Part shown: in pieces, positions 15,925 to 47,971 of the stretch
Numbering within the stretch: position 1 is the first letter of the stretch
Layout of the letters: the number at the start of each line of letters is the position of its first letter
Source: Acorus gramineus
Taxonomy: Eukaryota > Streptophyta > Magnoliopsida > Acorales > Acoraceae
DNA length: 64,000 nucleotides
Assembly: GCA_030737835.1 (NCBI GenBank)
Contig: CM060850.1
Span: 21,819,615 to 21,883,614, forward strand
Direction: 5' to 3'
The notes under the pieces: model-generated
What the model was told of the DNA's origin: nothing
Databases searched by the model: none
What the model saw: only the letters and a program-made list of their open reading frames with translations
Position numbers and translations under genes: made by a program

Positions 15925-18900
15925 TCATGCCGCTGAAGTGTATGAGACTTTGTGAAAAAGTCTGATAACTGAAGAGAAGAGATATATGGGAGTGATATAG
16001 TGCTGCAAGAAAATGATGACGGACGAAGTGACAATCGATCTCGATGTGCTTCGTACGTTCATGAAATACTGGATTGCTAGCAATCTGAATGGCGCTCTTG
16101 TTGTCACAATATAGAGAGTAGACGCAGATAGAATGACACCCATGTCAAAGAGGAGGCGCCGAAGCCAAACAACCTCAGCAGTAGCAGATGCCATAGCACG
16201 ATATTCGGCATCAGCACTCGAACGAGAAACAATGTCTTGTTTCTTGGCCTTCCAAGATATAAGAGAGTCCCCAAGAAAGACACATATACCAGTTGTGGAT
16301 TTTCGATCTGTGACATCTCCTGCCCAATCAGCATCAGTATAAGCGCGAAGTTCAAGAGTAGAAGAAGACGGTAACAGCAGAGCACGAGATATAGTGCCAC
16401 GTAGATAGCGTATAATCCGAAGAACTGCTGCATAATGAACAGTACGAGGGGTAGCAACAAACTGACTGACAATATGCACAGCATAGGCAATGTCAGGACG
16501 AGTGACAGTGAGATAGACGAGGCTTCCAACAAGTTGTCTATAACGAGTAACATCAGAAAGTGGTTCTCCATCGTCAGGCCGGAGCTTAGCATGAAGCTCA
16601 ATAGGAGTAGGAGAAATGCGATCATCAGTCAGACAGGCACGGTCGATCAAGTCAGCAGTATACTTGCGTTGGGAGAGAAGATAACCACGCGGAGCAGAAG
16701 CAACTTCCAAGCCTAGAAAATAGCGAAGTTTGCCAAGATCTTTCATCTCAAATTGACGCTGAAGATGTTGCTTGACCGACTGTATATGAGACGAATCATC
16801 GCCGGTGATGATCATGTCATCAACATAAAGCAGCAGGATAGTACGATGAGGACCAGAGGTGTGAACAAATAAAGCTGGATCAGAGGAACTCGGAACAAAC
16901 CCAGCAGCACAGATAGCATCAGTGAATCGAGCGAACCAAGCACGAGGAGCCTGCTTGAGACCATAGAGAGCGCGGTGAAGATGGCATACATGACCAGATG
17001 AATGAGGAAGACCCGGAGGAGGAGTCATGTAAACCTCCTCTGATAAATCACCATGAAGAAAAGCGTTCTTGACATCAAGCTGATAAATGGGCCATTGACG
17101 AACAGAAGCAACAGAAATCAAAGTACGAACAGTCGTCATCTTTGCTACAGGAGCAAATGTCTCATCATAATCAATACCATGCTGCTGAGTGAAACCACGG
17201 GCAACCAACCGAGCCTTGTGACGCTCAATCGAACCATCAGAGTTGGTCTTGATCTTATAAACCCACTTACAGCTGATAGGAGTCTTCCCTGGAGGAAGTG
17301 GTACAATTTTCCACGTATGAGTGCGTTGTAATGCACTAAGCTCCTCTGCCATAGCACCTTCCCATTCTGGAATGCCGACAGCCTCACGATATGATTGGGG
17401 CTCCCAGTGAGTGGAAACAGCTGAAAGAAAACACTGAAAACTAGGAGAAAAAGAATCAGAGGCAACCAAGCTAAGTCGTTGAGGAGGTCGACGAGCGCGA
17501 GGCGGATTGCGACGAGGAGCAACTGGTGCGGGATCGACTACCGGTGCGGGGTCGACTGCTGGTGTATGGTCGACTGCTGATGCGGGGTCGACTGCTGGGG
17601 CATGGTCGACTACTGGTCGAACAACATCAGGCGCAGGAGCAACAACAGGGGGACTCGGCTCACATGAATCATCCGAAGAAGGAGATATAGGGGATGGCAA
17701 GGTCGTAGATGGGACAGATGAAGGAATAGAAGCCGGTGGGATAGACGATGGGGATGACTCAGGAGATGAGAAATCCAGAAAAATAAGGTCATCAACAGTA
17801 GACGGAGGAAGTGGAGCCGGAGGTGAGCGAAGAGCATAATAAGGATGATGCTCCCAAAATGTGACATGACAAGAAATGCGAAGACGTCGTGCAATAGGAT
17901 CATAACACTTGTAACCCTTATGTTGAATACTGTATCCAAGAAAAACACACATAGCAGAACGAGGAGAAAGCTTGGTACGTTCAGTGGGAGGAAGAAGAAC
18001 AAAACATGTGCAACCAAAAACACGAAGACGAGAATAATCAGGTGGCTGATTGTGAAGCCGCTCAGATGGTGAGATACCACCAGTAATAGATGACGGAGTG
18101 CGATTGATGAGATACACACTTGTGAGAACTGCCTCACCCCAAAACTCAACAGGGACGGATGCAGAAAGAAGTAAAGATCGAGTCATCTCAAGGATGTGAC
18201 GGTGTTTACGCTCAGCAACGCCATTTTGTTGATGAGCATAAGGAGTGGAAAACTGAGGAAGGGTGCCTTGGGATGTCAAATATTCACTAAAAGCCTTAGA
18301 ACAATATTCACCACCACAATCAGAGCGTAACACCTTAATACGACGAGAAAATTGAGTCTCAACCATGGTAGCAAAAGAAGTATAAATACGCAATAAATCT
18401 GAACGACTAGAGAGAAGGTAAATCCAAGTGAAACGAGAATAGTCGTCGATAAAAATGACATAATATCGATTTCCCCCTTTTGAAAAAATAGGAGACGGAC
18501 CCCAAATATCAGAATGAACTAAATCAAAGGGAGAATCTGAAATATGCGAACTGGAAGGGAAAGGAAGAGCCACTGTCTTACCCAATTTACAGCCCACGCA
18601 TGGTTGAAGATCCGTGCGAGAAAATGATCCTAATGCACCGGTGCTAACAAGATATCGGAGTCTAGGCTGAGACAAATGACCAAGACGACGATGCCAAAGA
18701 TCGAAAGGGGAAGGGGAATTTGTATCTAACTGCACAGAAGCAGCGGAAGGCAGAGGAACATGAAGCTGATCCATGTAATAGAGTCCACCTTGTCGTCGCC
18801 CAGTCCCAATCCGTCTCCCAGTAAGTCGATCCTGAACAGAACAAGATGATGAATCAAATGTGATCGTATAACCAAGGTCAGCAAGTTGACTGACAGAAAA

Positions 18901-19458
18901 CAAACTCATGGAAAGTTTAGGAACATGCAAAACATTTGGCACATTAAATCGATGAGAATGATCAGAAAGAATGCCAGAGCTCGAGACAGACATAGGAGAA
19001 CCATCAGCAGTGCGAATAAGTGAAGGAGAACGGAGTGGTGTACAATTAACAAGAATCGATGCATCCGATGTCATGTGATGGGAAGCCCCAGAATCAAGAA
19101 CCCATGAGGTAATCGGTATACCTGGTACGGGAGTAGAAGCAGACTGAACAGAACCAGAAAGATCTATACCAGTCAATGATCGTAACATAACATAAAGCTG
19201 TTGATATTGATCTTGTAGCCCCTTTAAATGTGCAATAAGGTGAGCTGTGGTAAACTGTGACTGAGCAGAAGCAACGCGAGGTGCAATTGATGTACATATC
19301 TGATCCTGACAAAGAGAAGATTGAGTAGACGACTGGATTGATAAAGAGAAAGCGGCATCTCGAGCACGTTTTCTAGCCAACTTGCGGCAATCGAGGGTCA
19401 CATGTCCAAAGGAGTGACAATATCTGCAATCCATAGTACTTGCACAGCAATAGATCAA
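15925..19458 (-). pseudogene. Copia B pol polyprotein region
   Basis: One long minus-strand open frame of 1177 codons. In order it holds a CX2CX4HX4C zinc knuckle (CRYCHSFGHVTLDC), the copia protease motif (WVLDSGASHHMT), the gag-pre-integrase part (LWHRRLGHLSQ), integrase (DDYSRFTWIYLL; HQQNGVAERKHRHIL), reverse transcriptase (HGIDYDETFAPV; LYGLKQAPRAWF; LLYVDDMIITG) and RNase H (YTDADWAGD). These activities would copy and insert the element. It is treated as a fossil because it is an old insertion without an evident full gag. Confidence 0.93.
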
Positions 19459-19539
19459 AATAAACAGTATCTGATAGATCCAAAACAGTCACAGATGCGT
19501 AGATCACGAAAAGCTGATCAAAATGAGTACCAATATGAC

Positions 19540-20460: not shown

Positions 20461-20936
20461 CATGCCACTTCCCATTTTCATGGTAATGATCTTCTTGTCA
20501 TTGCTACCGGCAAATCTTTTTTTTATTTTCTCTCGTGTTTACATATGAGGGCTAACTAAATCACTTGGAATGATTTCTGCCTATGTTTTTGTTTTAAAAA
20601 AAGTTCAAATGACTAAACATGTAATATCTTTCGCCAATGCTTGACATTCATAGGTATAGTGATTTCCAATACATGCATCTTTACTATGCAAAAAAAATTT
20701 ATACAACTTTTTTTTTTTTTTAACAAAACTTGTATTTCTTTAATAATTTTATGAAGAAAGGAATGGATGATATTTATTTTATTACATGATGTTTGTTTTG
20801 ACTGAAATTTTACATTTCCATTTTTTTTTGGTTCGTGGTAGATTTTTACCTCATCAATACGGCAATACCTGATGGTTCCTTGTTCTGTTTCATTTTTATA
20901 AGTTTTTTCTATTCCATTATTGGATCAATAAAATAT
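20461..20936 (+). other. Original MSL1 downstream flank
   Basis: This sequence continues the stretch interrupted by copia B. It is AT-rich and non-coding. An AATAAA hexamer at 20927-20932 could serve MSL1 as a poly(A) signal. It overlaps the 9-bp target duplication (ATAAAATAT, 20928-20936) of the MULE that begins next. Confidence 0.4.
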
Positions 20937-21070
20937 GGGTAATTAGCACTTTTAACCCCCGAAAATTAAAAATTTGCAAAAATAGCCCCGCCACCCGAAT
21001 ATTTGCAAAAACTAGACCCGGCGATATTTTACACTGGAGACGGATTATATATAATCCGTCTCCAGTGTTG
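20937..21070 (+). repeat. Left terminal inverted repeat of the MULE
   Basis: Matches the reverse complement of 36530-36666 with scattered differences. It runs from GGGTAATTAGC through an AAATAGCCCCGCCACCCGAA-type block to the ACACTGGAGACGGATTATA palindrome arm. Confidence 0.88.
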
Positions 21071-21243
21071 CAATCGTAAGTGGCCCATTCACACTAGAGA
21101 CGGATTATATATAATCCGTCTCCAGTGTAAATGGGCCCCTTAATGAATTTACACTGGAGACGGGTTATATATAACCCGTCTCCAGAAGACGGATTGTATA
21201 TAATCCGTCTCCTGGAGACGGATTATATACAATCCGTCTTCAG
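21031..21243. repeat. Array of subterminal palindromes
   Basis: Four to five palindromes lie head to tail. The first (21031-21068) is a perfect 38-bp palindrome with arm ACACTGGAGACGGATTATA. The second (21091-21128) is nearly identical. The third (21151-21186) has GGGTTATA arms. The rest (21186-21242) are built from GGAGACGGATT and AATCCGTCTC units. They are separated by AT-rich or GGCCC-containing spacers. The same core also occurs at the right end and in the small derivative at 46935-47971. Confidence 0.9.
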
Positions 21244-21469
21244 TCCTTTTTTTTTTTTTTTTTGGTTTTATACATTGTTGGTTATCTCACCTGTATAAAA
21301 ATTCCTGCTTGAACATGCATAAATGTAATAAAATTGCATTGATATTTACATAAATCCATTATAATCACTTGACTCCAGTTTCTAAACACCAATGAAAATA
21401 CATAAATATAATACACACAAATGAAAATGCATGAATATAATAAAAGTGTTTTACATCCCATAAATACAA

Positions 21470-23695
21470 TCATCCAAATATTCTCATAAGTCCTTTCTTT
21501 TTAGCTTTTCTCGGAGCAGGAGGTGCTGATGAAGAGGGTACGTCAGTTGCTGTGGATGGCGGCACACCTGATTGTGGTGGAGTGGTAAATTGTTCGCCCG
21601 ATCCCCGACTGGCAGTAGTAGAAGTACACCAAACCCTGCGTGGTCCACGAGTATATGTCTGGAGTGTCATCTGTGGAGCTCGATCAGGAGCTGGGGCTGG
21701 TTGTTGTGGTTGCTCATCGATCTCTGCATCGAGTCGTACATCATTGAAGAACTCATCAATGGTGAATTCGGTGTGAGCGAAACTATCATCTACCACATCC
21801 TCAGAATCATCAGCATCTGTAGATGCACTGGGGGTACTCGAAGGTTGTCCCCTGTCTCCCATCATCGCATCTGCATAGTCCCGTGCCACAGCAATTATAC
21901 GATCCCACTCACCGCAGTTGGGGTATAAGACCAACCCCCTTGCAAGCACCTCGGTAATGTTCTGTGTAACTCCCCCTGTTAACAAAAGTTTCAATATGAT
22001 AAGTAATATAAAATCATTTATCACTATCTAAAAATGTAACACGCGTTTAAAATTCTTACCGAATTTGGTGCGACATAGCCTGGATGGTACTGTGGGGGTG
22101 GTGGAGGTGTGATATGTCTGACTGTTCTCTCCCAGTACCACTCCATATATCTCCTCAAACTCCGGGTATCAGGAAATTGGTGGATGTGATCCAATCGTTG
22201 GTCCCAACGCTCGATATAAGACTGGTGGAAAACTATCCAATTCACATCCTGTCTACCTCGTCTGTTTACCTGGTCGATGGCCTCTACATCAGATGGAATG
22301 TCCTGATGCCATCCAAATTGACGTGCGACTCGATCTGGCACGTGCATCTCCACAATATCAAAGCAAATGAGTGGGACCCTAGCCGTCCACAACTCCATAT
22401 GATCCAAACATGCAGGTGGTAGTGTCTCATATGTCCCAGGATAAGGCTGCCATATAACCTACCAAAAACCAAATATATAATTAGTATGACAATTAACATA
22501 GAATATATCATTTGTGAAATATATGGCTAATTGTATAGTCACCTGCGACTGAAGCTGATAGTCCAGTTGTGCTCTATAGTATATCAGAACACGCGAGTTT
22601 TCATCAAACCTCTGAGTCACCTTCCACCTGAAATATCGAATTTAATACATGATCTTCTATGAATTGACAAAAGAAGATGAAAATATTGACATTACCTTGC
22701 TCCCAAAGGTCGATCTCCAAGAATAAAATCTGGATCATGCAATGACAGTCGTCCCACATGTAATCTCTCCCACGACCATAGCTGCATTGGAACAAAATCT
22801 TTAGTAACACAGGAAAAAAAACAAATTTAGTATGTATGGATGAAAATTGGGGTTTGCATATTACCTGTAGCAAAGAATAAAAACCATGAGATCCTGCCGA
22901 CATCCTCTCTCCAAGCACACTACCTCTGTACAATGCTCTATATAAGTGGGCCAACGCAGCTGCACCCCATGAATATCGACCAGCATCCTCAAAATCTCTG
23001 AATAAATGAAGGTAGCACGCATGTATCTTATTTCCTGTGCCATCGGCGAAGATTGTTGATCCAAGCACAAATAAGATATATGCACGTGCATACTGCTGGA
23101 GGATATCGTCGTCCAATTCAACATCTGGTACGATGCTGAAGGTTTCTTTAAGCCACGAGAGAAAAATTCTTCCACCCTTGATCTTATCTGCAGAGGGGCC
23201 AACACCTAACAGCTCCTCACAAACGCTGGCCCAATCATCGTGGTCTGTGATACCAGTCACGGGCTTGCCATCAATGGGTAGTCCAGTCAGAATAGCAACG
23301 TCCTGAAGTGTAATTGTCATCTCGCCATGTCGCAGATGAAATGTGTTGGTCTCTGGTCTCCATCTCTCAATCAGTGCTTGTAGAAGTCGATGACCTGATC
23401 TGGTATATCCCATCTCTGTCAAATAATACAACCCCGATGCCCTCACGTATGGCTCGATGCGTGGATCCATGACCCAGTGACGCAATGCCACCATGTGGAT
23501 AGTAAACTTGGACGAGTTGGTCTGTTTAAGGAAATTATATATTCAAGTAAGAAAAAAATCATATATGAAGAATAACATTAGAGAAAAACACATCATTTGT
23601 CATACCTTGCCCTGGAATCCATGATGAAACCTATGAGATCCCTGAAAATACAGCAAATCATCCATGACGGGTCCATGCCACTCACGTATGTCCAT
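21470..23695 (-). CDS. Plant mobile domain (PMD, MAIN/MAIL-like) gene carried by the MULE
   Basis: Exons on the minus strand: 23695-23606, 23521-22865, 22781-22696, 22627-22543, 22458-22060 and 21975-21470, about 600 aa. The first four junctions have good GT-AG sites and matching phase. Recognisable PMD (aminotransferase-like) segments include VALRHWVMDPRIEPYVRASG, TFHLRHGEMTITLQDVAILT, GLPIDGKPVTG, LWSWERLHVGR and VIWQPYP. Host relatives MAIN and MAIL1 act in the nucleus in genome stability, silencing and meristem maintenance, with PP7L. PMD genes are also known as passengers of transposons. The low-complexity tail ends in basic PRKAKKKGLMRIFG. The last junction is out of phase by one base at a run of five Cs (21972-21976), so either the splice differs or the tail is lost. 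The ATG at 23695 is the first after the transposase stop. Confidence 0.85.
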
Positions 23696-23772
23696 CACCT
23701 GTAATTTGAACACAAGTTAATATCTACTCAAACAATTGAACATTCATCATCATATCACAATCATATTTAACA

Positions 23773-24653
23773 TCAATTACCAGCATTTGTATTTCTACGT
23801 GGACATTTATTTTTTCTATGGCTTTTCTCATGACATATTGAACATGTATATCTCAGACTTGGATCCCTGGAGTCCATATGCATACGTCGGCGAGTTGATA
23901 CAGGGCGCCCCGCTTGTCTCCTAACATTTGGTGGGATGAAGATGGGATCGTTTTCCGTAGGAATCGGCCAACGACTTTTATCATCAACGGAGTGGAATCG
24001 GGGTTCATAAGTGTGTCTATATGACTCTGAGGAAAGCCAATGTGACACATATCTCCCAGGACTAATACGAGCATACCCACAGGCCGCTATGACATGTGCA
24101 CATGGATAGTGAAACAACTTCGGAACATGACATTGACATTCTGCATTGTCAGAATATAGGAAAACAATGTACATAACCGCATTCTTGTCTTGGACATTGA
24201 ATTCTGATCTATCAAGCCTTCTTACTAACATCGCCCTTGCATCATGTGCAGTTCTCTCCAAATGTTGCTGCATAGATGGCACATGTTCACCTGACATGCT
24301 CTCGGCCGATTCACGCCTCGTATAAAAATACTCTGACACTCGTATGAATGTCTGTTGTAATATGGCAGTGACTGGTAATCCTCTTACACCTTTCAAGACA
24401 CTGTTCATGCTTTCTGCTCTATTGGTGGTCATCGTGCCATGACGACGGCCATCGTCATAACAAAGGGCCCATGTTTGTGGAGGGACTTGATCAAGCCATG
24501 TGCGAGCTTGTGAGGAGGCACTAAGAATCTTTCGCATTTCATCAGCAAATTGATTTGGACATTTCAAGGTGGCATCCCTCCACACTTGGTCACTCAACTC
24601 CTTTGATTTTACATGTTTTTTTAAGTTGTCTATCATGTGTCTCATACAGAAAC
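23773..24653 (-). pseudogene. MULE transposase, C-terminal part
   Basis: Minus-strand frame continuing the transposase after the gypsy insertion. It has the conserved MULE helix around TNRAESMNSVLKG, whose Glu is the likely third residue of the DDE triad. A SWIM zinc finger follows (CQCHVP then CAHVIAACGY, a CxC...CxH pattern), then a CX2CX4HX4C knuckle (CSICHEKSHRKNKC) near the end. The frame closes with a TGA at 23773-23775. A GGTAAT donor-like site just before the stop does not splice in frame to the PMD gene downstream. Confidence 0.9.
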
Positions 24654-24658
24654 GATGG

Positions 24659-27600
24659 TGTTATATATGTGTCACTTTTAACCTGTTGGTAACCGTTAGA
24701 GCGCCCTGGCAGTTTTAAAAATTTTTAGGGTTTTCGATCGGAACCGCTTATTTTCAGACTGTTAGCTATCGTCTGATCTAGAGGACTCCGATTGGAAATC
24801 TGACTGCATATTTGGTGTCCTGGTGCCATTTCTGACCTCCCACGAAAATTTCATCGAATTCTGGCATCGTTTGCAAAAATTTCGCAGTTCCGGGGCGTAT
24901 CCGGGTTTTTAAGTGACTTGTTATAAAGGAAATCAAATAAAACAAAAATCACTATTCATCGTCTCTCCCGACGTGATCTCTCTCTCTCCCCTCTCCGTTT
25001 TTCTTCCGTTTGAGCCCCCTCCACCCCTCAAAATCGAAAACCTAAAGCACGGGAAGTGTAGATCGGGTCCCGATCTACGCTCCGGTGTCTTCAAATCCGA
25101 ATTCCGGCGACTTTAGCCTCCCCGACCTCCCCTTTTCGTCCTCTGATTTGGCCCATTCCGAGGGATAAGCTAGATCGGGGCGTGAGAAGGCTTTTGGGAA
25201 GGGTTTCGGCGCGTGGAGATCCACCGGACGCCTCTTCCTCCCCTCGGTAAGCCTTCTTTCTCTCCTTTTTCTTGCTTAGATGAATGCTAGGGGGAGGTTT
25301 TTGTGATTGGGGGTGGTCGGCGGCTGTGGGGGTCGTCGGAGGGTGGTCGGAGGTGGTGGGAGGTGGTCGGGAGTCGGTGGGTGGTGGTTTGGGTGGTCTC
25401 GGGCAGCTGGTGGTGGCGCTCGGGCTGCGGCAGGTCGTCCGGGCCAAGCAGCAGCAGCAGCAGCAGCCAGGCGGCGCCAGGTCGGGTGCGCGCGGGCAGG
25501 CGCGCGTGCGTGCGCGGGCGCGCGTACGCGCGGCGTGCGCGCGAGGGCGTGCGGGCCTGGTGCAGGGTGCTGGTCGGCCTGGGCGAGCAGGGGCTGGTGC
25601 TGGGCGAGCAGGGGCTGGTGCTGGGCGAGCAGAGGCCGAGCTGGGCGGCTGGTGCGCGTGGAGCAGGTCGCGCGGGTGCGCGGACGGCGTGCGCGAGGCC
25701 GCGGCGTGCGCGAGGCCGTGGCTGAGGGTGCGGATGGCGTGCGCGAGGCCGTGGCGTGCGCGAGCCGTGGCTGAGGGGCGAGGTGCGCGAGGCCGTGCGC
25801 GAGGCGTGCGCGAGGTGCGGCGAGGTGGCGGAGGTGCGCGCGGGGTGCGCGCGAGGCGGGGCACTGCGTGCGGGGGCGCGCGGGGTGCTCGCGGACCGGC
25901 GCGAGGCGTGCGGGGCCCGCGGTGGCGCGTCCGGGCGGTGGCCGACCGTGCGGGTGGTTGCCGGGGGCCGTGCGGGTGGTTGCCGAGGCCGCGGGTAGTT
26001 GTTGGGGAAGTGTTGGATGCTTGTTGTGGGTTTAGGGGTGTTTATTTATGTATTTAATGATAATTGTGGATTAATACTTACCAAATAATACCTGTCTTGC
26101 AGATCTCGACAGACGGTCGCGCGTCGACCCAGATCACTGGTGAGTGGGACAATCCAACCCAGTCGAGAGGTGTTATACGCACTTGGGCGTATACCGACCT
26201 CTCCTGGGGCGTCTTGGATGAATATTAACCTGCAATAATATGTATCCATGATTGTATAATTTATGTGTAGAATGCATGCTTCCCTAGTCTTTGCATGTTA
26301 GGGACTTGCCCCTTAGGATATGCATATGAGCCTTGCAGCATGTCCCCTGTTTACATGCTAGGAAACCCGGCCTATGCATGTGTCCTACTAGTTTTATTTA
26401 TTAAATTAAATACTAGTATCTGTTGAATTGCATGTTATAGTGATTATTTTAGGGGAGGGGCCTTGCGAGGACAGCGGTGAGACCCGGGTTAGGGTACACC
26501 GTGTTCCTTGTTTGGTTGTCGGAGCGTCCTATAACGGGAACTCACGCTGCCCTCCCGAGTTGCTTTCCCCCAAGAATATTTCACCATGTTATAACCTTAT
26601 GCATGTTCCCCGCATCGTAGTTATGCGCCCTGGTGGGTTCTGAGGAATTCAGAACGTTAGAGTTGTATGTTTGGTATGATTATTAGCATGAGTAGTGAAT
26701 ATTATAGGGGAGGGACCTTGCGAGGACAGCGGTGAGACCCGTGCTAGGGTACTCCGTGTTCCTTGTTTGGTTGTCGGGGTACCCTGTATCGGGAACTCAC
26801 GCCGCCCTCCCGAGTTTCTTTCCCCCAGTGGTATTCCAACACTGCTTTTGATTGTACTGTTTCCCCGCATCTTGGTTATGCACGCTGGAGGAACTCTGAA
26901 GAGTTCATGACATTTGAGTTGGAGAGATGCGTTGTCGGCGGATCCGAGTGGATCATATGCGTATGGATAGGCTGTTCTGTCCCCCTGCGTTGGATCCGGT
27001 AGAGACTACCCCCAACGTTAGACAGGGCCTTCCTGACAGAGGGCTCCCATCAGTAGGCACCTCCTGATTTGGTGACGGACTGTGCTGAATGTGGGAGTAG
27101 ACCAGGCGGCCTACGGAGTGGAGGGAGAGACTATCGGTGGACCAAGGGTGACCAACAGCCTAGTCAGTCCCAAAATCCTATGTCACCCGTGGTAGGGTGA
27201 GGGTGAGGGTGTAGTGGGTTGGCGATGAGCGACCTGCTAGTTTTGTTTATGGATGATTGTTAGTCCCAACATCCTGAGTCCCCTGTTGAGGGGTAAAAGG
27301 TGAGGGTATGATCTGGGTTATGGAAATTGTGGATTGAATGGATTAATATGTTGTGGTCAATATTGTCTGTGATGCATGGGTTGTGCCGTTCACTGAGCGT
27401 GTGGCTCACCCCTCGCATATGTTTTTCCCCAGTTGCCACTGAGCCTGAGCTGGAGCCGGAGCAGCAGTTGGAGCTTTCCGAGGGATTTCTTCAGTAGCGG
27501 AGCAGCGCTACGTCCGCGAGTACCAGAGGCTATCAGCATCCCTTTCCTTGGCTGTATGTATTGTATTTCCGTGCTGAGCACGTGTTGTATATATTCAGTT

Positions 27601-27836
27601 GTATTTGTGTATATTGGCTCTCACAGGACGTATGATTGAGTATCGAGTCTGTAGAATGTTTATTCACAGATTCAGTCTTTTGCTTCCGCATTAGGTGTAT
27701 ATATCATGTCAGCTTCTTGTCGTTGTGTGTCATTCTGTTTATTGTGTATGATATATATTGTTGACCTCCTGTGTAGGTTTCTGATATGATATATACACTT
27801 GCCGCGTCCCGGGGTTGGCCGCCCTGGGGCGTGACA
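24659..27836 (+). repeat. 5' LTR of the gypsy element (3178 bp)
   Basis: It contains a GC-rich tract (about 25300-26000) with a short CAG run (from 25448) and GCGCGAGG-like words, then two tandem copies of a roughly 240-bp module beginning GGGGAGGG(G/A)CCTTGCGAGGAC (near 26453 and 26708). The open frames through the GC-rich tract lack protein motifs. Confidence 0.95.
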
Positions 27837-27955
27837 AAAGTTGGTATCAGAGCCTGGTCCTGTCAGAGCCAATAGTCTTCCTTTCGTAGAGATGAGTCCT
27901 AGGATTTCGAGATGAGTATTCTGATCCTAGTGTCTGGTTTTCTTAGGGTGCTGAT

Positions 27956-29494
27956 ATGCCTCCTCGCAGAGGACGGCGCGGACGAGGTCCCTCTCGGTCT
28001 TTGGAGGTTTCCGGACCTACCAGAGACGAGGATGCTACCGGAGAGCCCTTGACGCAGGAGCCACCTGCTTGGGAGCGTGCTTTCGCTCGGTTGGCTGATT
28101 TGGTGGAGACACAGACGCGGATGATGGCAGAGCAGGCTAGAGAGATTCAGGAGCTGAGGGCGACTCGCGAGGCAGTTCCGCCGGTCCCCTTGGTGGTAGA
28201 TCCGCCTGTGGTACCCGATGTACCCCCAGTTCCTGTGGCAGTTCCGGCAGTTGGAGTTGAGGATCCCCTGGAAAGGGAGGAGGAGCTAGAGGCGGCAGCG
28301 CGGGTGCAGCAGAGCGGCCTCAACGCCTTTCTAAAGCTCCATCCTCCCGAGTTTCATGGGCAGTCGGCAGATCCTCTTGCGCCAGAGCGTTGGTTGAGGG
28401 AGGTGGAAACGATTTTCGCGGCCATGCTTTGCACCGATCGCCAGCGAGTCGCCCTGGCCACCTTCATGCTGAAGGGTGACGCCGCCGAGTGGTGGGCTAC
28501 CCGAGTGGTGGACATTCCAGAGGGAGTGGAGCAGCTTTCTTGGGCGGGATTCTGGAGGTACTTCTTGGATGAGTACTTCCCGTTCTCGGCGCGGCAGCTA
28601 GTGGAGCGGGAGTTTGAGCAGCTGACTCAGGGCACCATGTCCGTCGCTGACTACTCTACGCGCTTCACGAGTCTGTCCAGATTTGCTCCAGCCTTGGTGA
28701 CGGATGAGGTCACGAGGTGCCGGCGATTCGAGCTGGGTCTCAGCAGCGCTATCAGGGTGCACGTCACCGCCCACGCTTTCACGAGGTACTCCGACTTAGT
28801 GTCTCGGGCGAAGACCGTCGAGAGAGACCTCGGGATTCAAGTGCGGGCTCCGACCCCTTCTTCAGATCAGGGTCCTTCCGGGAGTCGGGACCAGGGGCAG
28901 CGCAGGAAGAGGAGGCCCCGTTTCGATCAGTCAGCGGCTTCCTCTCCTCCAGCAGATGCGGTGCCAGTGTGGGATCCAGCACCCATTGCGGCAGTGCCCA
29001 TCCAGTCCTGGCAGCCGGAGAAGCGGCGCTGTTTTCATTGTCAGCGCATCGGGCATATCAGATACAATTGCCCAGATGCTGACCGACCCCGAGTGCCACC
29101 TCAGCAGCCGCCGTTCTTGCAGCAGCAGCTTCCGCGCCAGCAGCAGCAGCAGCAGCCTCAGCGTCAGCAGCAGCCAGTGCAGCCGGCGAGGCGTGCTCCT
29201 GTTCCTCAGCCGCGGTTGGTCCAAGGCAGAGTTGCAGCGCTTACGGCCGAGGAGGCGCAGCCTTCGGGTGTCATGGTTCGAGGTATCATCTTGTGTTCCC
29301 AGCTTTCTAGTATAAGGATAGATGTGTGTGTAATTGGTGGTTATTATGCAAGTGTGTGGGGTATCTGGATGAGTGAGTGTCAAGAGCGGTTGTTTGGGTT
29401 AAGGAAGCCGGGTTTTAGCTGTCCTGGCAGTGAGTTCCCATCAGTAGGTACCGCCGATGCAGTCGGAGGGGTACTGAATTTGGGAGTATGCTAG
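27956..29494 (+). CDS. Gypsy element gag
   Basis: An open frame beginning MPPRRGRRGRGPSRSLE about 120 bp after the 5' LTR. The retrotransposon gag domain lies near residues 120-290 (FLKLHPPEFHGQSADP; AEWWATRVVDI; FWRYFLDEYFP; MSVADYSTRFTSLSRFAP). A CX2CX4HX4C knuckle (CFHCQRIGHIRYNC) lies near 365, then a Gln/Pro-rich stretch. In the family this protein forms the particle that packages element RNA. The gag part looks whole. The end of the frame (about 29280 on) runs into non-gag sequence. Shape and motifs fit the Tekay/Del lineage. Confidence 0.9.
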   Translation: MPPRRGRRGRGPSRSLEVSGPTRDEDATGEPLTQEPPAWERAFARLADLVETQTRMMAEQAREIQELRATREAVPPVPLVVDPPVVPDVPPVPVAVPAVGVEDPLEREEELEAAARVQQSGLNAFLKLHPPEFHGQSADPLAPERWLREVETIFAAMLCTDRQRVALATFMLKGDAAEWWATRVVDIPEGVEQLSWAGFWRYFLDEYFPFSARQLVEREFEQLTQGTMSVADYSTRFTSLSRFAPALVTDEVTRCRRFELGLSSAIRVHVTAHAFTRYSDLVSRAKTVERDLGIQVRAPTPSSDQGPSGSRDQGQRRKRRPRFDQSAASSPPADAVPVWDPAPIAAVPIQSWQPEKRRCFHCQRIGHIRYNCPDADRPRVPPQQPPFLQQQLPRQQQQQQPQRQQQPVQPARRAPVPQPRLVQGRVAALTAEEAQPSGVMVRGIILCSQLSSIRIDVCVIGGYYASVWGIWMSECQERLFGLRKPGFSCPGSEFPSVGTADAVGGVLNLGVC

Positions 29495-31001
29495 GTAGGG
29501 GCTACCCGGTAAGAGATTATTGAATGGTGTCGCGAGCGTGGAATCGCTCTCCCCTTAGTTGGATCCGCGTAGTACAGCCCCGGCGTTAGACAGGCTCCCA
29601 GTCAGAGGACCAGGCGAGCTACGGAGGGGGAGAGGCTACCGGTGGACCAGGGGTAGAGAGCAGTCTAAGTCTCTCCCAAAGTCCCAAAATGTCTCCTTTC
29701 GGGAGTGAGGGTGTGGATGAGGCGAAGACGGGTCGCTCGTGACCAAATGGTTTATTCGACCGTTCCCGATGATGTTGGGTTCGGTCCTGTAATGGATGAT
29801 GTCGCGAGTATGGAATCGTTCTCCCCTTCGTTGGACCCGAGTAGGGACTCCTCAGCGTTAGAGAGGCCTTCCTGACAGAGGGCTCCCCTCAGTAGGCACC
29901 TCCTGATTTGGTTTCGGACTGTGCTGAATTGTGGGAGCGGACCAGGCGGCCTACGGTGTGGAGGAGAGGCTACCGGTGGACCAGGGGTGAAGAACAGTCT
30001 AAGTCTCTCCCAAAGTCCCAAAAAGTCTCCTGAAAGGAGTGAGGGTGTGGATGAGACAAAGACGCGTCGCCTCGTGACTCGGTCGTGGTTCGACCGTTCC
30101 CATAGAGGTTGGGTCCGGTCTTGAGATGGATGTTGAATGACATCGTGGTGATCATCTAGATGTAGGTGATCTGGAGGGGTTAGATGTGTTATTTTAAAAT
30201 GATGTCTTCTTCTAGTGTTCCTTTCTGGATTAAGGGGCCTTGTGAGGTCGGCGTTGAAACCCGGGCTAGGGTACTTCGTGTTCCTTGTTTGGTTGTCGGG
30301 GTATCCTATATCGGGATTTCATGGTGCCCTCCCGAGGTTTCTTTTCCCAGGCAAGGGATACCATGGAAGCATCAGATAGATGAAAGATCAAGTGCGAGTT
30401 TTGGGTAGAGGTTAAGGCCTTTTGGGCTGGGTGAGTTCTGGTGAAGGCATATCTGTGGACCCGGGTAAGACGCTTGCTATGTCGAATTGGCGTAGACCGT
30501 CGAGCCCCGCATGGATTCGGAGCTTCCGGAGTTTGGCGAGTTATTGCAGGAAGTTTGACGAGGATTCTCGAAGATAGCTGTTCCTTTTACCCGCCTTACT
30601 CGGAGGGATATCCGGTTCGAGTGGTCCCCTTCTTGCGAGGAGAGCTTCCTGGAGTTACTCGGAGGCTCACCTTAGCGCCAATTCTTACCTCTCCGTCTTG
30701 GAGTGGTGGGTTCGCAGTTGGGTAAAGGTGTGTCCGCGATCCTGCTCACGTCATCCCGTTCGAGCCGCTCGTCTCTGAGCCGGACAGTCATTCGTGGAGC
30801 AGTCGATTGAGATCATGGACCGCCGCGTGAGGAGGCTCTGCACCAAGACCGTCCAGTTGGTCGAGGTGCGATGGCAGCACCGTTCCGGTGTTAAGGACAC
30901 TTGGGAGCTCATGGAGGCCAGGTTCGACGCGTATCCGCATCTTTCCCCTCCTAGATGTTTTTGGCGAATTTTGGGGACAAAATTTCCTAAGGGGGGAATA
31001 A
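29495..31001 (+). repeat. LTR-like blocks and pol tail inside the gypsy element
   Basis: Blocks at about 29430-30060 resemble the LTR stretch around 26935-27240 (shared GGCCTTCCTGACAGAGGGCT and CAGGCGGCCTACGG). A block at about 30230-30345 resembles the tandem LTR module (GTGTTCCTTGTTTGGTTGTC). Near 30790-30950 a short frame resembles the very end of chromovirus pol. The purine tract then leads into the 3' LTR. No polymerase or integrase motifs were recognised. Confidence 0.7.
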
Positions 31002-34000
31002 TGTTATATATGTGTCACTTTTAACCTGTTGGTAACCGTTAGAGCGCCCTGGCGGTTTTTTTAAAATTTTTAGGGTTTTCGATCGGAACCGCTTATTTTA
31101 GACTGTTAGCTATCGTCCTGAGTTAGAGGACTCCGATTGGAAATCTAACTGCATATTTGGTGTCCTGGTGCCATTTCTGACCTCCCACGAAAATTTCATC
31201 GAATTCTGGCATCGTTTGCAAAAATTTCGCAGTTCCGGGGCGTATCCGGGTTTTAAGTGACTTGTTATAAAAGGAAATCAAATAAAACAAAATTCACTAT
31301 TCATCGTCTCTCCCGACGTGATCTCTCTCTCTCCCCTCTCCGTTTTTCTTCCGTTTGAGCCCCCTCCACCCCTCGAAATCGAAAACCTAAAGCACGGGAA
31401 GTGTAGATCGGGTCCCGATCTACGCTCCGGTGTCTTCAAATCCGAATTCCGACGACTTTAGCCTCCCCGACCTCCCCTTTTCGTCCTCTGATTTGGCCAA
31501 TTCCGAGGGAGAAGCTAGATCGGGGCGTGAGAAGGCTTTGGGAAGGGTTTCGGCGCGTGGAGATCCACCGGACAACTGCTCCTCCCCTCGGTAAGCCTTC
31601 TTTCTCTCCTTTTTCTTGCTTAGATGAATGCTAGGGGGAGGTTTTTGTGATTGGGGGTGGTCGGCGGCTGTGGGGGTCGTCGGAGGGTGGTCGGAGGTGG
31701 TGGGAGGTGGTCGGGAGTCGGTGGGTGGTGGTTTGGGTGGTCTCGGGCAGTGGTGGTGGCGCTCGGGCTGCGGCAGGTCGTCCGGGCCAAGCAGCAGCAG
31801 CAGCAGCAGCCAGGCGGCGCCAGGTCGGGTGCGCGCGGGCAGGCGCGCGTGCGTGCGCGGGCGCGCGTACGCGCGGCGTGCGCGCGAGGGCGTGCGGGCC
31901 TGGTGCAGGGTGCTGGTCGGCCTGGGCGAGCAGGGGCTGGTGCTGGGCGAGCAGGGGCTGGTGCTGGGCGAGCAGAGGCCGAGCTGGGCGGCTGGTGCGC
32001 GTGGAGCAGGTCGCGCGGGTGCGCGGACGGCGTGCGCGAGGCCGCGGCGTGCGCGAGGCCGTGGCTGAGGGTGCGGATGGCGTGCGCGAGGCCGTGGCGT
32101 GCGCGAGCCGTGGCTGAGGGTGCGGATGGCCGTGCGCGAGGCGTGCGCGAGGTGCGGCGAGGTGGCGGAGGTGCGCGCGGGGTGCGCGCGAGGCGGGGCA
32201 CTGCGTGCGGGGGCGCGCGGGGTGCTCGCGGACCGGCGCGAGGCGTGCGGGGCCCGCGGTGGCGCGTCCGGGCGGTGGCCGACCGTGCGGGTGGTTGCCG
32301 GGGGCCGTGCGGGTGGTTGCCGAGGCCGCGGGTAGTTGTTGGGGAGGTGTTGGATGCTTGTTGTGGGTTTTGGGGTGTTTATTTATGTATTTAATGATAA
32401 TTGTGGATTAATACTTACCAAATAATACCTGTCTTGCAGATCTCGACAGACGGTCGCGCGTCGACCCAGATCACTGGTGAGTGGGACAATCCAACCCAGT
32501 CGAGAGGTGTTATACGCACTTGGGCGTATACCGACCTCTCCTGGGGCGTCTTGGATGAATATTAACCTGCAATAATATGTATCCATGATTGTATAATTTA
32601 TGTGTAGAATGCATGCTTCCCTAGTCTTTGCATGTTAGGGACTTGCACCTTTAGGATATGCGTATGAGCCATGCAGCATGTCTCCTGTTTACATGCTAGG
32701 AAACCTGGCCTATGCATGTGTCCTACTAGTTTTATTTATTAAATTAAATACTAGTATCTGTTGAATTGCATGTTATAGTGATTATTTTAGGGGAGGGGCC
32801 TTGCGAGGACAGCGGTGAGACCCGGGTTAGGGTACACCGTGTTCCTTGTTTGGTTGTCGGAGCGTCCTATAACGGGAACTCACGCTGCCCTCCCGAGTTG
32901 CTTTCCCCCAAGAATATTTCACCATGTTATAACCTTATGCATGTTCCCCGCATCGTAGTTATGCGCCCTGGTGGGTTCTGAGGAATTCAGAACGTTAGAG
33001 TTGTATGTTTGGTATGATTATTAGCATGAGTAGTGAATATTATAGGGGAGGGACCTTGCGAGGACAGCGGTGAGACCCGTGCTAGGGTACTCCGTGTTCC
33101 TTGTTTGGTTGTCGGGGTACCCTGTATCGGGAACTCACGCCGCCCTCCCGAGTTTCTTTCCCCCAGTGGTATTCCAACACTGCTTTTGATTGTACTGTTT
33201 CCCCGCATCTTGGTTATGCGCGCTGGAGGAACTCTGAAGAGTTCATGACATTTGAGTTGGAGAGATGCGTTGGCGGCGGATCCGAGTGGATCATATACGT
33301 ATGGATTAGGCTGTTCTGTTCCCTGCGTTGGATCCGGTAGAGACTACCCCCAACGTTAGACAGGGCCTTCCTGACAGAGGGCTCCCATCAGTAGGCACCT
33401 CCTGATTTGGTGACGGACTGTGCTGAATGTGGGAGTAGACCAGGCGGCCTACGGAGTGGAGGGAGAGACTATCGGTGGACCAAGGGTGACCAACAGCCTA
33501 GTCAGTCCCAAAATCCTATGTCACCCGTGGTAGGGTGAGGGTGAGGGTGTAGTGGGTTGGCGATGAGCGACCTGCTAGTTTTGTTTATGGATGATTGTAA
33601 GTCCCAACATCCTGAGTCCCCTGTTGAGGGGTAAAAGGTGAGGGTATGATCTGGGTTATGGAAATTGTGGATTGAATGGATTAATATGTTGTGGTCAATA
33701 TTGTCTGTGATGCATGGGTTGTGCCGTTCACTGAGCGTGTGGCTCACCCCTCGCATATGTTTTTCCCCAGTTGCCACTGAGCCTGAGCTGGAGCCGGAGC
33801 AGCAGTTGGAGCTTTCCGAGGGATTTCTTCAGTAGCGGAGCAGCGCTACGTCCGCGAGTACCAGAGGCTATCAGCATCCCTCTCCTTGGCTGTATGTATT
33901 GTTTTCCGTGCTGAGCACGTGTTGTTATGTATATTCAGTTGTATTTGTGTATATTGGCTCTCACAGGACGTATGATTGAGTATCGAGTCTGTAGAATGTT

Positions 34001-34179
34001 TATTCACAGATTCAGTCTTTTGCTTCCGCATTAGGTGTATATATCATGTCAGCTTCTTGTCGTTGTGTGTCATTCTGTTTATTGTGTATGATATATATTG
34101 TTGACCTCCTGTGTAGTTCTGATTTGATATGATATATACATTTGCCGCGTTCCGGGGTTGGCCGCCCCGGGGCGTGACA
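31002..34179 (+). repeat. 3' LTR of the gypsy element (3178 bp)
   Basis: Same length as the 5' copy, with small indels that cancel out. It ends GGCGTGACA directly against GATGG at 34180. Confidence 0.95.
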
Positions 34180-34184
34180 GATGG

Positions 34185-35987
34185 TGCCATGTTACATTGC
34201 TTGATTCCTCAATATCCTTCATGCCTGCTATGATGCCCAAGTGCCGATCAGATATGACACACAAATTGTTTATACCACCAACAGAAAAGAACAAGTTCCA
34301 AAGGAAGAAGGTCCAACTGCTTCTGTTCTCAGATTCAACTATAGCAAAGGCTATCGGAAGCAAACCATTTTCTGCATCGCAAGCAGTGGCTATCAGGAGA
34401 TTTCCTTTATACTTTCCATACAGATGTGTTCCATCGATGCAAACCAATGGACGACAATGTTTGAAAGCCTCTAAGGCTGGTCCGAATGCCCAAAAAACAC
34501 GTTCAAACTGTCGGATCGGTCTGCCCATGTTATTCTCTTGTATGACAGGGCCTTCGAAGAACACATTTGTTCCTGGATTAGACCTCCTCAAGGCATCAAC
34601 ATATAGAGGCAACTCAGCATATGATTCCTCCCAATTTCCAAATATCCTCTCCATAGCCTTCCATTTGGCACGGTTTGCTTTTGAATATGAAATTGTGTAG
34701 TGATGATCAGCACGTATCCTGTCCATTATCTCAGTAGGCCTGATTCTCAAATTATGACGAATCGTTGGCATAATCAGCTGTGAGATATAATCAGAACTAA
34801 ATTGTCTGTGATTTGAACTGAGAAGAGGATCCAAGCATGTATGAGGAACTCTCAGAGTGGAAATCTTGAACATTTCTGAACCACCGACCCTCCTCGCATA
34901 TAATCTCCAATTACATTCATCATTTATGCACTTAACGGCGTATTTTTCTGCATTTGATTTCACCACATGACATTGTGCGCATTTCTTTATGCTCCAGGTT
35001 CGGACAGCATTAATGAGTGACTTCTTATTCGCGAAAAGCTGACCAACCTCAAGTTCATTACACGAAGAAGATCCGATTTCATAAATGCATGGATGGACAT
35101 TTTCAGCCACCGCCTGCTCCATAAGCTCACGTGTAGGAAACATTTGAGGAACACTATATTCACGGATGGCAGTTCTCCTCACATCATGGTCCTCCTCACT
35201 ATCAGGTTCCTCAACCTAGCCATATTCACGATCCTCTGCTTCTTCTTCTTCTTCGGTATCTTCATCATCATCCTCTTCTTCTTCTTCCCCTTCTTGATCT
35301 TCTTCTTCTCCCCAATCTTGATCTTCTTCTTCTCCCCCTTCTTGATCTTCTTCTCCTTCATTGTTCACTTCAATTCCTTCACGAATATCGTCCCAACCCA
35401 TGTCATGAAATGGGGACCTATAAATGCAAACACAATATACTTACATATATGAATACACCCACCAAAAACATCCTATAAATTCACAATACTTACAAATGTG
35501 GTATATTCACACTCCCATAGGCATTGGTCGGTGTTGCATCAATCATATTCTCTTGGGTGCACGGAACAAACGACGACGATGAAGGTTGATATGGTTCACG
35601 AACAATGGAAGGATATGAATCTTCTGCATCATAATTCATCGCGCCACGATCTCTTTGTATGATCTCTTCCTTCTCTAACCATATTTGAATGACATGCGCG
35701 TGCTGTGGGTACAACATCATCATAACTTTCACTTCCATATCATCTTCGAGAGGGGCACCCAAACACTTTCCATCGTGAGTGGGATGCACAGCAGTCATGG
35801 ACAATTTGTAAAGACTTGGATCGGTCCCCGTCAAATGGTACATCATTTGGAGTAAATCGACATAAGAGATCTTCTTACGTATGATGGTGGTTTTCCTGGT
35901 ACCACCTTCATAAAATGAACTATCTTCGAGTTGAACAATCCTTCCGTTAAAAGAGTACATTAACGGGACATCGGATTTCTTTACCAT
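34185..35987 (-). pseudogene. MULE transposase, N-terminal part
   Basis: Exon 1 is 35987-35494 and exon 2 begins at 35417 (donor TT/GTAAGT, acceptor TTATAG), running into the gypsy insertion. Exon 1 (VPLMYSFNGRIVQLE...) looks like the PB1-like N-terminal domain of MuDR transposases. Exon 2 has a very acidic stretch from GAA/GAT triplets (35230-35390), a zinc-binding MuDR domain (KKCAQCHVVKS; CINDECNWRLYARR) and the transposase core with VCIDGTHLYGKYKGNLLIA and VISDRHLGI. These supply the first two Asp residues of the DDE triad. One in-frame TAG lies at about 35216, after the acidic stretch. The third catalytic residue lies beyond the insertion. Confidence 0.92.
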
Positions 35988-36529
35988 CTAAACCATAAAT
36001 TATTCAACTTAGTAAATATATTTCTAAATTCATAATAATAAAATCCATCCAACACATACACATTAAACACAAAAAACATTCATGCAACACATACAAAGCA
36101 TATTTCCAAAAAAATAGCCTTTCATTTTTTTAAAATGTTTACTAAGAGGCCATTGAATTATTTCCTAAGGCCATACAATTTTTTAAAAAAATTTCAAATT
36201 TTTTTAAGATTTAAAAGTTTATTTTGACAAATAAGAAATTTTAAAATAACCAAAACCCTAAAAAAATTCACATTTCACTTAACAAAACATCATACAATCA
36301 ACATTCCAATAATAAATAAATTCAACATTCAACATTTAGGATTTTTTATAAAAACCCTAATTTAATCAATAAAATCAAAACAATTGATAAATAAATAATA
36401 AAATTCAAGAACATTTAGGGTTTTGATGTTTACCTTCGGATTCAAAGTTGTTTTTGATGATTTTTCGGGGTTGGCAGCGGGTGGGTGAGTGAAAGAGGGA
36501 CAAAAGGGGTGAAAAATGGGGGTTTTGAT
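35988..36529 (-). other. MULE 5' leader/promoter region
   Basis: AT-rich, non-coding stretch between the transposase start and the right terminal repeat. It presumably holds the transposase promoter. No clear individual site is claimed. Confidence 0.4.
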
Positions 36530-36666
36530 GTTATATATAATCCGTCTCCAGTGTATAATCCGTCTCCAGTGTAAAATATCAACGGGGCTAATTTTTACAA
36601 ATATTCGGGTGGCGGAGCTATTTTTTTAAATATTTAATTTTCAGGGGCTAAAACTGCTAATTATCA
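36530..36666 (-). repeat. Right terminal inverted repeat of the MULE
   Basis: Inverted relative to 20937-21070. It contains two close copies of the ATAATCCGTCTCCAGTGTA unit and ends GCTAATTATCA against the ATAAAATAT target duplication. Confidence 0.88.
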
Positions 36667-36675
36667 ATAAAATAT

Positions 36676-46934: not shown

Positions 46935-47971
46935 AGGTAATTAGCACTTTTAGTCTTTTTAAAATGAATATTTGTAAAAATAGCCCCGTCCGTCGAATAT
47001 TTGTAAAAGCTAGCTCCGTTGACCCAGTCAACGCTACCATGTCAGCGCTGACCGTTTTTTTAATTTTTGTACTAGAGACGGATTATATAATTGATGTGGC
47101 ACGTGACTATGCAAATGCGATTATAGGAGACAGGGAACAACTTTTGAGTACATCCAGTGCGTCTATAGATGCTGATGATTATGAGGATGTCATAGATGAT
47201 AGTTTCGCTGGGACAGGGGCTGATACTGAATTCACAATTGATGAGTTCTTCAGTGATGTATCACTCGAGACAAAATTTGATGAGCAGCCACAACAATCAG
47301 CTCCAGTTTCAGATCAAGCTCCAGAGATGATACTCCAGACATATGTTCGTGGATCATGCAGGATTTGGTATACTTCTACTACTGTCAGTCGGACATCGGA
47401 CGAACAATTTACCACTTCGCCACAATCAGGTGTGTCATCTTCTACAGCAACTGATGTACCCTCTTCATCAGCACATTCTGCTCCAAGAAAAGCTAAAAAG
47501 AAATGATTAATGAAATATTTAGATGATTGTATTTGTGGGACGTAAGACATGTTTATTATATTTATGCATTTTCATTTGTGTTCAGAAACATGAGTCAAGT
47601 GATTGTAATGGAACTTATGTCTTATTTCTTTAAAGTTGTTTTATTATATGTTCAAGCAAGATTTTCCATACAGATGGGAAAAAACAATTTGTACAATAAT
47701 AATAAAAAAAAACGGATGACCACTAGAGACGGTAGAGACGGATTATATATATACCATCTTCGATGTAAATCCCCGCTGTTTTGGCCAAAACATTGGAGAC
47801 TCCAGTACAAAAATTAAAAAAAAAACGGCCAGTGCTAATCGGGTCAACGAAGCTAGTTTTTATAAATATTCAATGGACGGAGTTATTTTTATAAATATTC
47901 ATTTTAATGAGCCTAAAAGGAGTTATTTTTACAAATATTCATTTTAATGAGGCTAAAAGTGCTAATTACCC
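46935..47971 (+). mobile_element. 1-kb deletion derivative of the PMD-carrying MULE family
   Basis: Flanked by a 9-bp target duplication ATTTTATTA (46926-46934 and 47972-47980). The ends are AGGTAATTAGC on the left and GGGTAATTAGC on the right strand, like the large MULE, with the same AAATAGCCCCG and GAGACGGATTATATA blocks inside. The interior is the last exon of the PMD gene plus its 3' flank, at roughly 85% identity to the large copy. No transposase is present, so movement would need one supplied in trans. Confidence 0.92.
47090..47506 (+). pseudogene. PMD gene C-terminal fragment inside the small MULE
   Basis: The frame (DVARDYANAIIGD; TEFTIDEFFSDVSLE; VPSSSAHSAPRKAKKK-stop) parallels the tail of the PMD protein encoded at 21470-21975. 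It begins directly at the inner edge of the terminal repeat with no start codon of its own, although an ATG at 46964 in the terminal repeat lies upstream in the same frame. The PMD domain itself is absent. Confidence 0.85.

Follow-up and report, generated by a model that had tools for sequence, protein, structure and literature searches.

The stretch of Acorus gramineus DNA analyzed here (64,000 nucleotides of contig CM060850.1, positions 21,819,615 to 21,883,614; referred to as the window) carries at 20937-36666 a Mutator-like element (MULE) in which a transposase gene is followed, in the same direction, by a gene for a PMD protein. As judged from the DNA sequence, this plant has an old MULE lineage in which PMD is a permanent second gene, kept by selection on the element. 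The reading is based on several features: the two genes keep their order and spacing, four families have them in this order, purifying selection is seen, the transposase has a stop codon of its own, and splice-like sites recur at corresponding positions. In full, we propose a decayed two-gene MULE with PMD as a selected partner, a leader shared by both genes, and an anti-silencing role of PMD. We give this whole statement a probability of roughly 0.45, and the partner role weighs most in it.

The preliminary description of the window had raised the question of whether other copies also carry PMD behind the transposase. We searched the host genome (398.6 Mb); only the best candidates were scored, so all match counts are lower bounds. 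There were at least 136 matches to the C-terminal part of the transposase and at least 153 to PMD exon 2, 150 of the latter being listed. At no fewer than 102 of the 136 transposase matches listed, a PMD match follows on the same strand no more than 8 kb downstream, with 260 bp as the commonest distance. The remaining 34 had no listed PMD, and five of these were fetched. Three contain PMD after all (L009, L016 and L027), and the other two (L008 and L018) lost it by different deletions. A search with the terminal inverted repeats (TIRs) scored 40 near-full-length places among 431 candidates. A transposase or PMD match was found inward within 16 kb at 32 of the 40 places, and none at eight. Other copies do carry PMD behind the transposase, and the same holds for three further families.

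The elements fall into four diverged families, of which A is the window family. The transposase of family B (L063-L065) is 69-78% identical to that of A, depending on the stretch. For family C (L066-L071) the corresponding values are 53-66% for the transposase and 49-63% for PMD over the longest stretches, and for family D (L073) they are 38-40% for the transposase and 44% for PMD exon 2. A whole or truncated transposase followed by PMD in the same direction is found in L063-L065 of B, in L067, L068, L070 and L071 of C, and in L073 of D. In L069 (C) only transposase exon 1 precedes PMD. L066 (C) has no PMD in the 2.9 kb fetched, has another insertion behind the transposase, and shows a PMD match about 4.5 kb downstream. 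Family D transposases with at least 72% identity occur at 11 places (12 matches, two of them in one copy), and D-type PMD lies downstream on the same strand at 10 of these, nine times at 1.0-1.4 kb and once at 4.9 kb. Because families B, C and D show the same gene order, the association of PMD and transposase is, by this comparison, old relative to MULE diversity in this genome. For the same reason the sequences indicate that PMD is not a one-off passenger.

Selection within family A was assessed by comparing counts of nonsynonymous (N) and synonymous (S) variants with the numbers expected under neutrality, as derived from introns and fourfold sites. The copies were split by ascertainment to avoid choosing on the tested gene. 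Stretches of local identity below 85% were masked and codons present in fewer than six copies were dropped; the p values treat variants as independent, and the mutation spectrum ignores CpG context. The copies are young: over the stretch compared, they differ by a median of 0.8%. For PMD, the 19 copies chosen by the transposase only gave 41 N, 43 S and five stops (0.33 of neutral, p = 1e-6), and the variants found in two or more of these copies gave 7 N to 16 S (0.15 of neutral). PMD outside exon 2, counted in the 19 copies chosen by PMD exon 2 only, had 59 N, 50 S and three stops (0.37 of neutral), with 23 N to 23 S among shared variants (0.32 of neutral). The transposase in the 19 copies ascertained on PMD exon 2 had 16 N, 17 S and one stop (0.29 of neutral). 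In a first run without masking, shared variants were at 0.27 of neutral for PMD exons 1-5 and at 0.87 for the transposase.

Between families, the ratio of nonsynonymous to synonymous substitution rates (dN/dS) was calculated pairwise by NG86; codons with stops or gaps and pairs of fewer than 40 codons were dropped. From A to B it was 0.13, 0.15 and 0.15 for PMD exons 1-5 (dS 1.2-1.3) and 0.19, 0.18 and 0.16 for the transposase (dS 0.91-0.94). From A to C it was 0.08-0.13 for PMD and 0.11-0.18 for the transposase (five copies each), with dS near saturation. PMD exon 6 is looser, with 0.40 and 0.28 in the two pairs exceeding 100 codons and 0.15 over 40 codons in a third. Within the decayed families B and C, values of 0.4-1.0 for PMD exons 1-5 and transposase are as expected of dead copies. 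The preliminary description had pointed to dN/dS between copies as a check, and the outcome is far below 1, both from A to B and in the young family A with its 0.33 of neutral. The substitution patterns thus indicate that PMD is under purifying selection about as strong as that on the transposase.

An opposing explanation holds that the element captured PMD from the host and gains nothing from it, the gene being a passenger or a regulatory decoy. MULEs do capture pieces of host genes, PMD-defective copies are common among those picked on the transposase, and some small PMD deletions are common to two or three copies. However, the gene order is the same in four families, shared variants are at 0.15-0.32 of neutral, and the between-family dN/dS of 0.08-0.15 already contradicts a passenger; we regard this explanation as highly improbable. 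A random capture in particular is rejected by linkage and dN/dS. The earlier proposal that PMD is a working partner of the element rather than a random capture is supported by linkage, by dN/dS and by the three further families, and we consider it very likely that PMD is a selected partner.

Among 29 copies picked on the transposase C-terminal part, PMD (to element position 4800) was open in seven, frameshifted in 16, deleted or interrupted in five, and had a stop as its sole defect in one. Among 29 copies picked on PMD exon 2, the transposase (2200-3365) was open in nine, frameshifted in 14, and deleted or interrupted in six. Ten copies belong to both sets, and small deletions may partly be assembly errors. 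Because decay is symmetric between PMD and the transposase, both genes look like trans-acting functions that individual copies can lose. Additionally, the transposase match starts at the identical residue 95 in 12 copies (on C1, C2, C6, C8, C61 and C92). The two of these that were inspected, L052 and L053, have a one-base deletion in common, and a PMD match lies downstream in all 12. This suggests that a transposase-defective line multiplied with PMD retained.

One promoter and leader serving both genes by alternative splicing is, from the sequence around the start codons, the arrangement we think probable. A promoter in the transposase-side end would make an RNA with a noncoding leader. This leader would be spliced to the transposase or, skipping the transposase, to PMD, so that each protein would start at the first AUG of its own mRNA. 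In family A the presumed noncoding leader exon (36434-36507, minus strand, start estimated) holds no ATG and ends in CCGAAG/GTAAAC, where the slash marks the exon border. The presumed leader intron that follows (35988-36433, minus strand) is 446 nt long, contains 19 ATGs, and ends in TTTAG/ATG at the transposase start. A pyrimidine-rich stretch ending in AAG/GTA precedes the transposase in B, C and D, and in A it lies just inside the transposase-side TIR. With leader starts chosen by us, the presumed leaders of A, B and C contain no ATG. The intron-like stretch has 268-272 nt and 10-11 ATGs in B, 217 nt and six in C, and 132 nt and three in D.

The two start codons show a matching design. The transposase begins at TTTAG/ATG in A, CTTAG/ATG in B, CTGCAG/ATG in C and GATAG/AAT-ATG in D, and PMD at TTACAG/GTG-ATG in A, TTACAG/ACT-ATG in B (L065), TTCCAG/ATG in C and CATAG/ATG in D. 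Both start codons are thus 0-3 nt behind a YAG (Y, pyrimidine) in all four families, against a background of 76 of 814 ATGs in these elements. The chance of eight out of eight is about 6e-9 if the starts are independent; the families are related, so the figure is weaker than it looks, yet the flanks have largely diverged. The intergenic spacer contains five ATGs in A (23696-23772, minus strand, 77 nt, with TTACAG just before GTG-ATG), six in B and seven in C, which speaks against PMD being translated from an unspliced RNA of both genes. If RNA confirms the leader-splice design, it would reveal how one promoter can supply two proteins in a plant MULE.

PMD might instead be driven by a separate promoter within the 3' part of the transposase gene, with an intron in the 5' untranslated region that ends at the acceptor before the PMD ATG. 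This would explain the acceptor at the PMD start without a distant leader. However, a matching acceptor-ATG arrangement where the transposase begins and ATG-poor leaders in four families suggest one common scheme, and a separate promoter is in our view rather unlikely. A further alternative is that splicing of the spacer joins transposase and PMD into one fusion protein, as reported for grasses and Amborella, where PMD-C is fused to MULE transposases (PMC5418596; here and below, statements on published work refer to the available excerpts of the papers cited). The spacer of A does resemble a small intron (G/GTAATT...TTACAG), and a weak GT in C could give an in-frame join. The join in A, however, is out of frame with a stop soon after. 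In B the GT closest to the end of the transposase comes after two stop codons, in C stops follow immediately, and the decayed D copy also has a stop ahead of PMD. We therefore find a spliced fusion quite improbable. A simple fusion of the open reading frames (ORFs) is rejected at the DNA level by stop codons, which in A, B and C end the transposase and in the decayed D copy precede PMD; through its weak in-frame GT, the RNA of C could differ.

In a separate copy, L046, the transposase is missing, the leader region is joined straight to a truncated PMD exon 1, and a retrotransposon-like end adjoins. L046 is not accepted as a working PMD-only unit, as exon 1 is truncated and the normal start is absent.

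PMD proteins are needed for transposon silencing in Arabidopsis, and the role of transposon PMD is still a matter of speculation in the papers cited here (PMC5418596; PMC8616336). The PMD protein of the element would act in trans, and would most likely blunt host silencing by imitating or displacing the host proteins MAIN/MAIL1, partners of the phosphatase PP7L. By analogy, such an anti-silencing role is our best single guess, held at slightly less than even odds. Alternatively, PMD may be selected but act in transposition itself, whether in excision, in integration, in target choice or in nuclear import, a kind of role also ascribed to MURB of MuDR. The linkage and selection evidence fits this equally well, mudrB is apparently required for integration (PMC6446971), and subterminal palindromes offer a DNA-binding partner something to read. 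On the other hand, the excerpts of PMC5418596 and PMC8616336 describe host PMD proteins in silencing, gene expression and genome stability, not in DNA recombination, and Pfam gave only PMD in the scanned PMD exon frames. We consider a role in transposition unlikely compared with anti-silencing. With a young high-copy family and three diverged relatives in one genome, in which selection has clearly maintained PMD, the role of transposon PMD becomes testable.

At their ends the elements have long perfect palindromes whose words differ between families: A has GGAGACGG...CCGTCTCC, B has GGAGGCGCC...GGCGCCTCC and C has ACGTCTCC...GGAGACGT. In the window element, palindromes of the GGAGACGG...CCGTCTCC type are found at 21028-21244, and the 324 nt scanned at the PMD end hold three whose arms reach 11 nt or more; the interior of A (4,992 nt) contains none with such arms. 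Two or three palindromes of this arm length occur in five of the seven end stretches scanned in families A, B and C, and none occurs in the 5' end of the A window element or in L079 of B. The long perfect palindromes, including those at the ends of L076, L077, L078 and L081, are candidate binding sites for the transposase or PMD. They are similar to the repeated motifs read by VANC in layout, but not in sequence (PMC5735166). A more specific scheme would have two genes expressed from one spliced leader and PMD acting as a sequence-specific anti-silencer that reads the palindromes of its own family, with PMD and palindromes co-evolving like VANC and its motifs. We hold this combination to be improbable.

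Several results weigh against the reading proposed here. As PMD is open in only seven of the 29 transposase-picked copies, these copies indicate that it is not needed in cis. Constraint on the transposase N-terminal part was not significant in the 29 transposase-ascertained copies (35 N, 13 S, one stop; 0.84, p = 0.61), and the singletons of the unmasked first run, which was set aside for its misaligned flanks, were at 0.93-1.02. TIRs are established for family A only, and no TIR pair was found in 5.5 kb of D, where both ends need not lie. The leader and its splicing to PMD are predicted from DNA, with estimated leader starts. The presumed leader of D contains one ATG, L064 (B) has lost the PMD ATG, and in A and B a small intergenic intron would be allowed as well by GT dinucleotides close to the end of the transposase. 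The proposed anti-silencing role is derived from printed MAIN/MAIL1 biology and the VANC analogy, and no measurement favors it over a role in transposition.

The window element belongs to family A, is about 6.2 kb long without a nested retrotransposon, has its genes on the minus strand, and is mostly 97-99% identical in DNA to the other copies fetched. The TIRs and 9-bp duplication of the preliminary description are confirmed. The TIR at the PMD end lies at 20937-21049 (plus strand; tool-found arm 20934-21049), and its terminus GGGTAATTAGC is identical in L076 and L077. The TIR at the transposase end lies at 36554-36666 (minus strand; tool-found arm 36554-36669), and the 116-nt arms are 88% complementary. 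The 9-bp target site duplication ATAAAATAT was located by eye on both flanks (20928-20936 and 36667-36675), and was seen for the window copy only. MULE membership of family A is indicated by this duplication, the TIRs, and the transposase domains PF10551 and PF03108.

On the minus strand the transposase scores 42.6 bits for PF03108 (cut-off 25) and 42.8 bits for PF10551 (cut-off 27.6), and a SWIM zinc finger is just below threshold (18.7 bits, cut-off 19.6). The family D transposase likewise has PF10551 and PF03108 above cut-off. Exon 1 encodes the N-terminal part (35494-35987, minus strand; donor and acceptor assigned by eye). Exon 2 is split into a first part at 34185-35417 with both domains and a second part at 23773-24658 with the gene's own stop codon at 23773-23775, both on the minus strand. 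In the window copy a nonsense codon at 35216-35218 lies in frame ahead of the main transposase frame. Joining the retrotransposon flanks gives an exon 2 frame of 638 aa, and many other copies have open transposase frames of 675-719 aa that span the sites of both the retrotransposon and the nonsense codon.

The split of exon 2 is due to the later insertion of a long terminal repeat (LTR) retrotransposon (24659-34179, plus strand, ends by eye), which is flanked by the 5-bp target site duplication GATGG (24654-24658 and 34180-34184). Its gag frame has PF03732 above cut-off and PF19259 just below. It has LTR blocks of 85-100% identity and internal repeats. No reverse transcriptase frame was noticed among the listed ORFs of this stretch, and no search was aimed at one. 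Because of the nested retrotransposon, the in-frame stop and a faulty last PMD acceptor, the window copy is a decayed, dead two-gene MULE. These three points correct the preliminary description. The transposase of the window copy and the same-direction PMD gene 77 bp behind are verified by the Pfam domains and by the 77 nt from the transposase stop codon to the PMD ATG.

PF10536 is found in two PMD exons with 168.1 and 81.3 bits (cut-off 34.9). The gene lies on the minus strand and can be read as exon 1 (23606-23695, MDIREWHGP...), exon 2 (22865-23521, the PF10536 core), exon 3 (22696-22781), exon 4 (22543-22627), exon 5 (22060-22458, the PF10536 end) and exon 6 (21470-21976, tail end KAKKKGLMRIFG), with the border of exon 6 uncertain by one base in the window copy. 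The introns are 68-84 nt long and follow GT-AG except for the last acceptor, which is one base short in the window copy. Exon 6 is therefore out of frame there. Of 30 rows aligned locally, 22 show the longer G-run, four including the window are one base short, two have further gaps, and two are unrelated at this site. The description of the gene as complete-looking thus holds for the six-exon model but not for the last exon of this copy. The kept splice junctions of the window copy, which had been taken as an argument for past selection, are not accepted as such, because the copies compared are young (about 0.8% apart at the median).

Apart from PMD, no Pfam domain was detected in the scanned PMD exon frames; no VANC sequence or profile was searched for by name. 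PMD exon 2 had no sequence match in the PDB up to E = 1, and an AlphaFold model of it from eight rows was poor (mean predicted local distance difference test score, pLDDT, of 58). A tree of eight PMD rows from this genome, which includes no reference PMD genes, did not place A-D on one side of a branch, and L072 had a long branch. L072 (C11:2475000-2480500) is a very diverged PMD gene with PF10536 at 155 and 116.5 bits, and may be a host gene. L074, L075 and similar places represent another multi-copy PMD type (groups of five and four places, alike by score and frame length), and no family A transposase match was found around the PMD of L074 or L075 in the 5.5 kb fetched. Elsewhere in the window, an older relic of family A lies at 46936-47712, where a TIR-like stretch (79%) is found beside a PMD exon 6 match (78%) and no transposase piece was found next to it. 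Copia-type retrotransposon frames, one of them of 1187 aa, lie at 2109-5751, 15925-19488 and 59179-63040, as judged by reading translations without a search.

Among known systems, MuDR (mudrA/mudrB) is similar in being a two-gene MULE with an accessory protein. The genes mudrA and mudrB converge and each TIR of MuDR supplies a promoter, whereas the two genes here point the same way. The link between MULEs and PMD and the anti-silencing idea are already in print (Ikeda et al., 2017; Dupeyron et al., 2019). Ikeda et al. (PMC5418596) describe the fusions of PMD-C members to MULE transposases in grasses and Amborella mentioned above, infer two captures, and speculate on anti-silencing, and PMC8616336 repeats the counter-silencing idea. 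Dupeyron et al. (PMC6446971) report that in several plant MULE groups at least half of the members have PMD, frequently in antisense, and their table rows with PMD include VANDAL, MuDR-9_OS, MULE-Monocots, MDR, MUDRAVI2 and MUDR. These elements resemble ours in combining a MULE transposase and PMD, with anti-silencing already proposed. In the available excerpts, however, PMD is part of a fusion protein or occurs in sense or antisense, while here it appears as a separate same-direction gene with constant spacing in four families. A literature search of partial coverage found no selection analysis of MULE PMD and no leader-splice description. The selection evidence, the constant unit and the putative leader-splice architecture thus appear to be new.

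VANDAL21/Hiun with VANC is likewise a MULE with an accessory protein and repeated family-specific noncoding motifs (PMC5735166). However, VANC is a different protein that has been shown to cause loss of DNA methylation (PMC5735166), whereas the PMD described here is known from its sequence. The production of two proteins from one spliced unit has a parallel in the CACTA elements En/Spm and Tgmt (PMC2613891). In En/Spm, alternative splicing of the transcripts yields two proteins, and in Spm the intron-1 region of tnpA supplies the large ORF of tnpD (PMC2613891). These elements belong to another superfamily and encode unrelated proteins, and their splicing was shown on transcripts (PMC2613891), whereas ours is proposed from DNA. 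Finally, the host PMD-C genes MAIN/MAIL1 have the PMD domain PF10536 in common with the element, but do not lie inside a transposon. If the more specific scheme of a palindrome-reading anti-silencer were true, the host silencing factors MAIN/MAIL1 and the transposon PMD would represent two sides of one domain's history.

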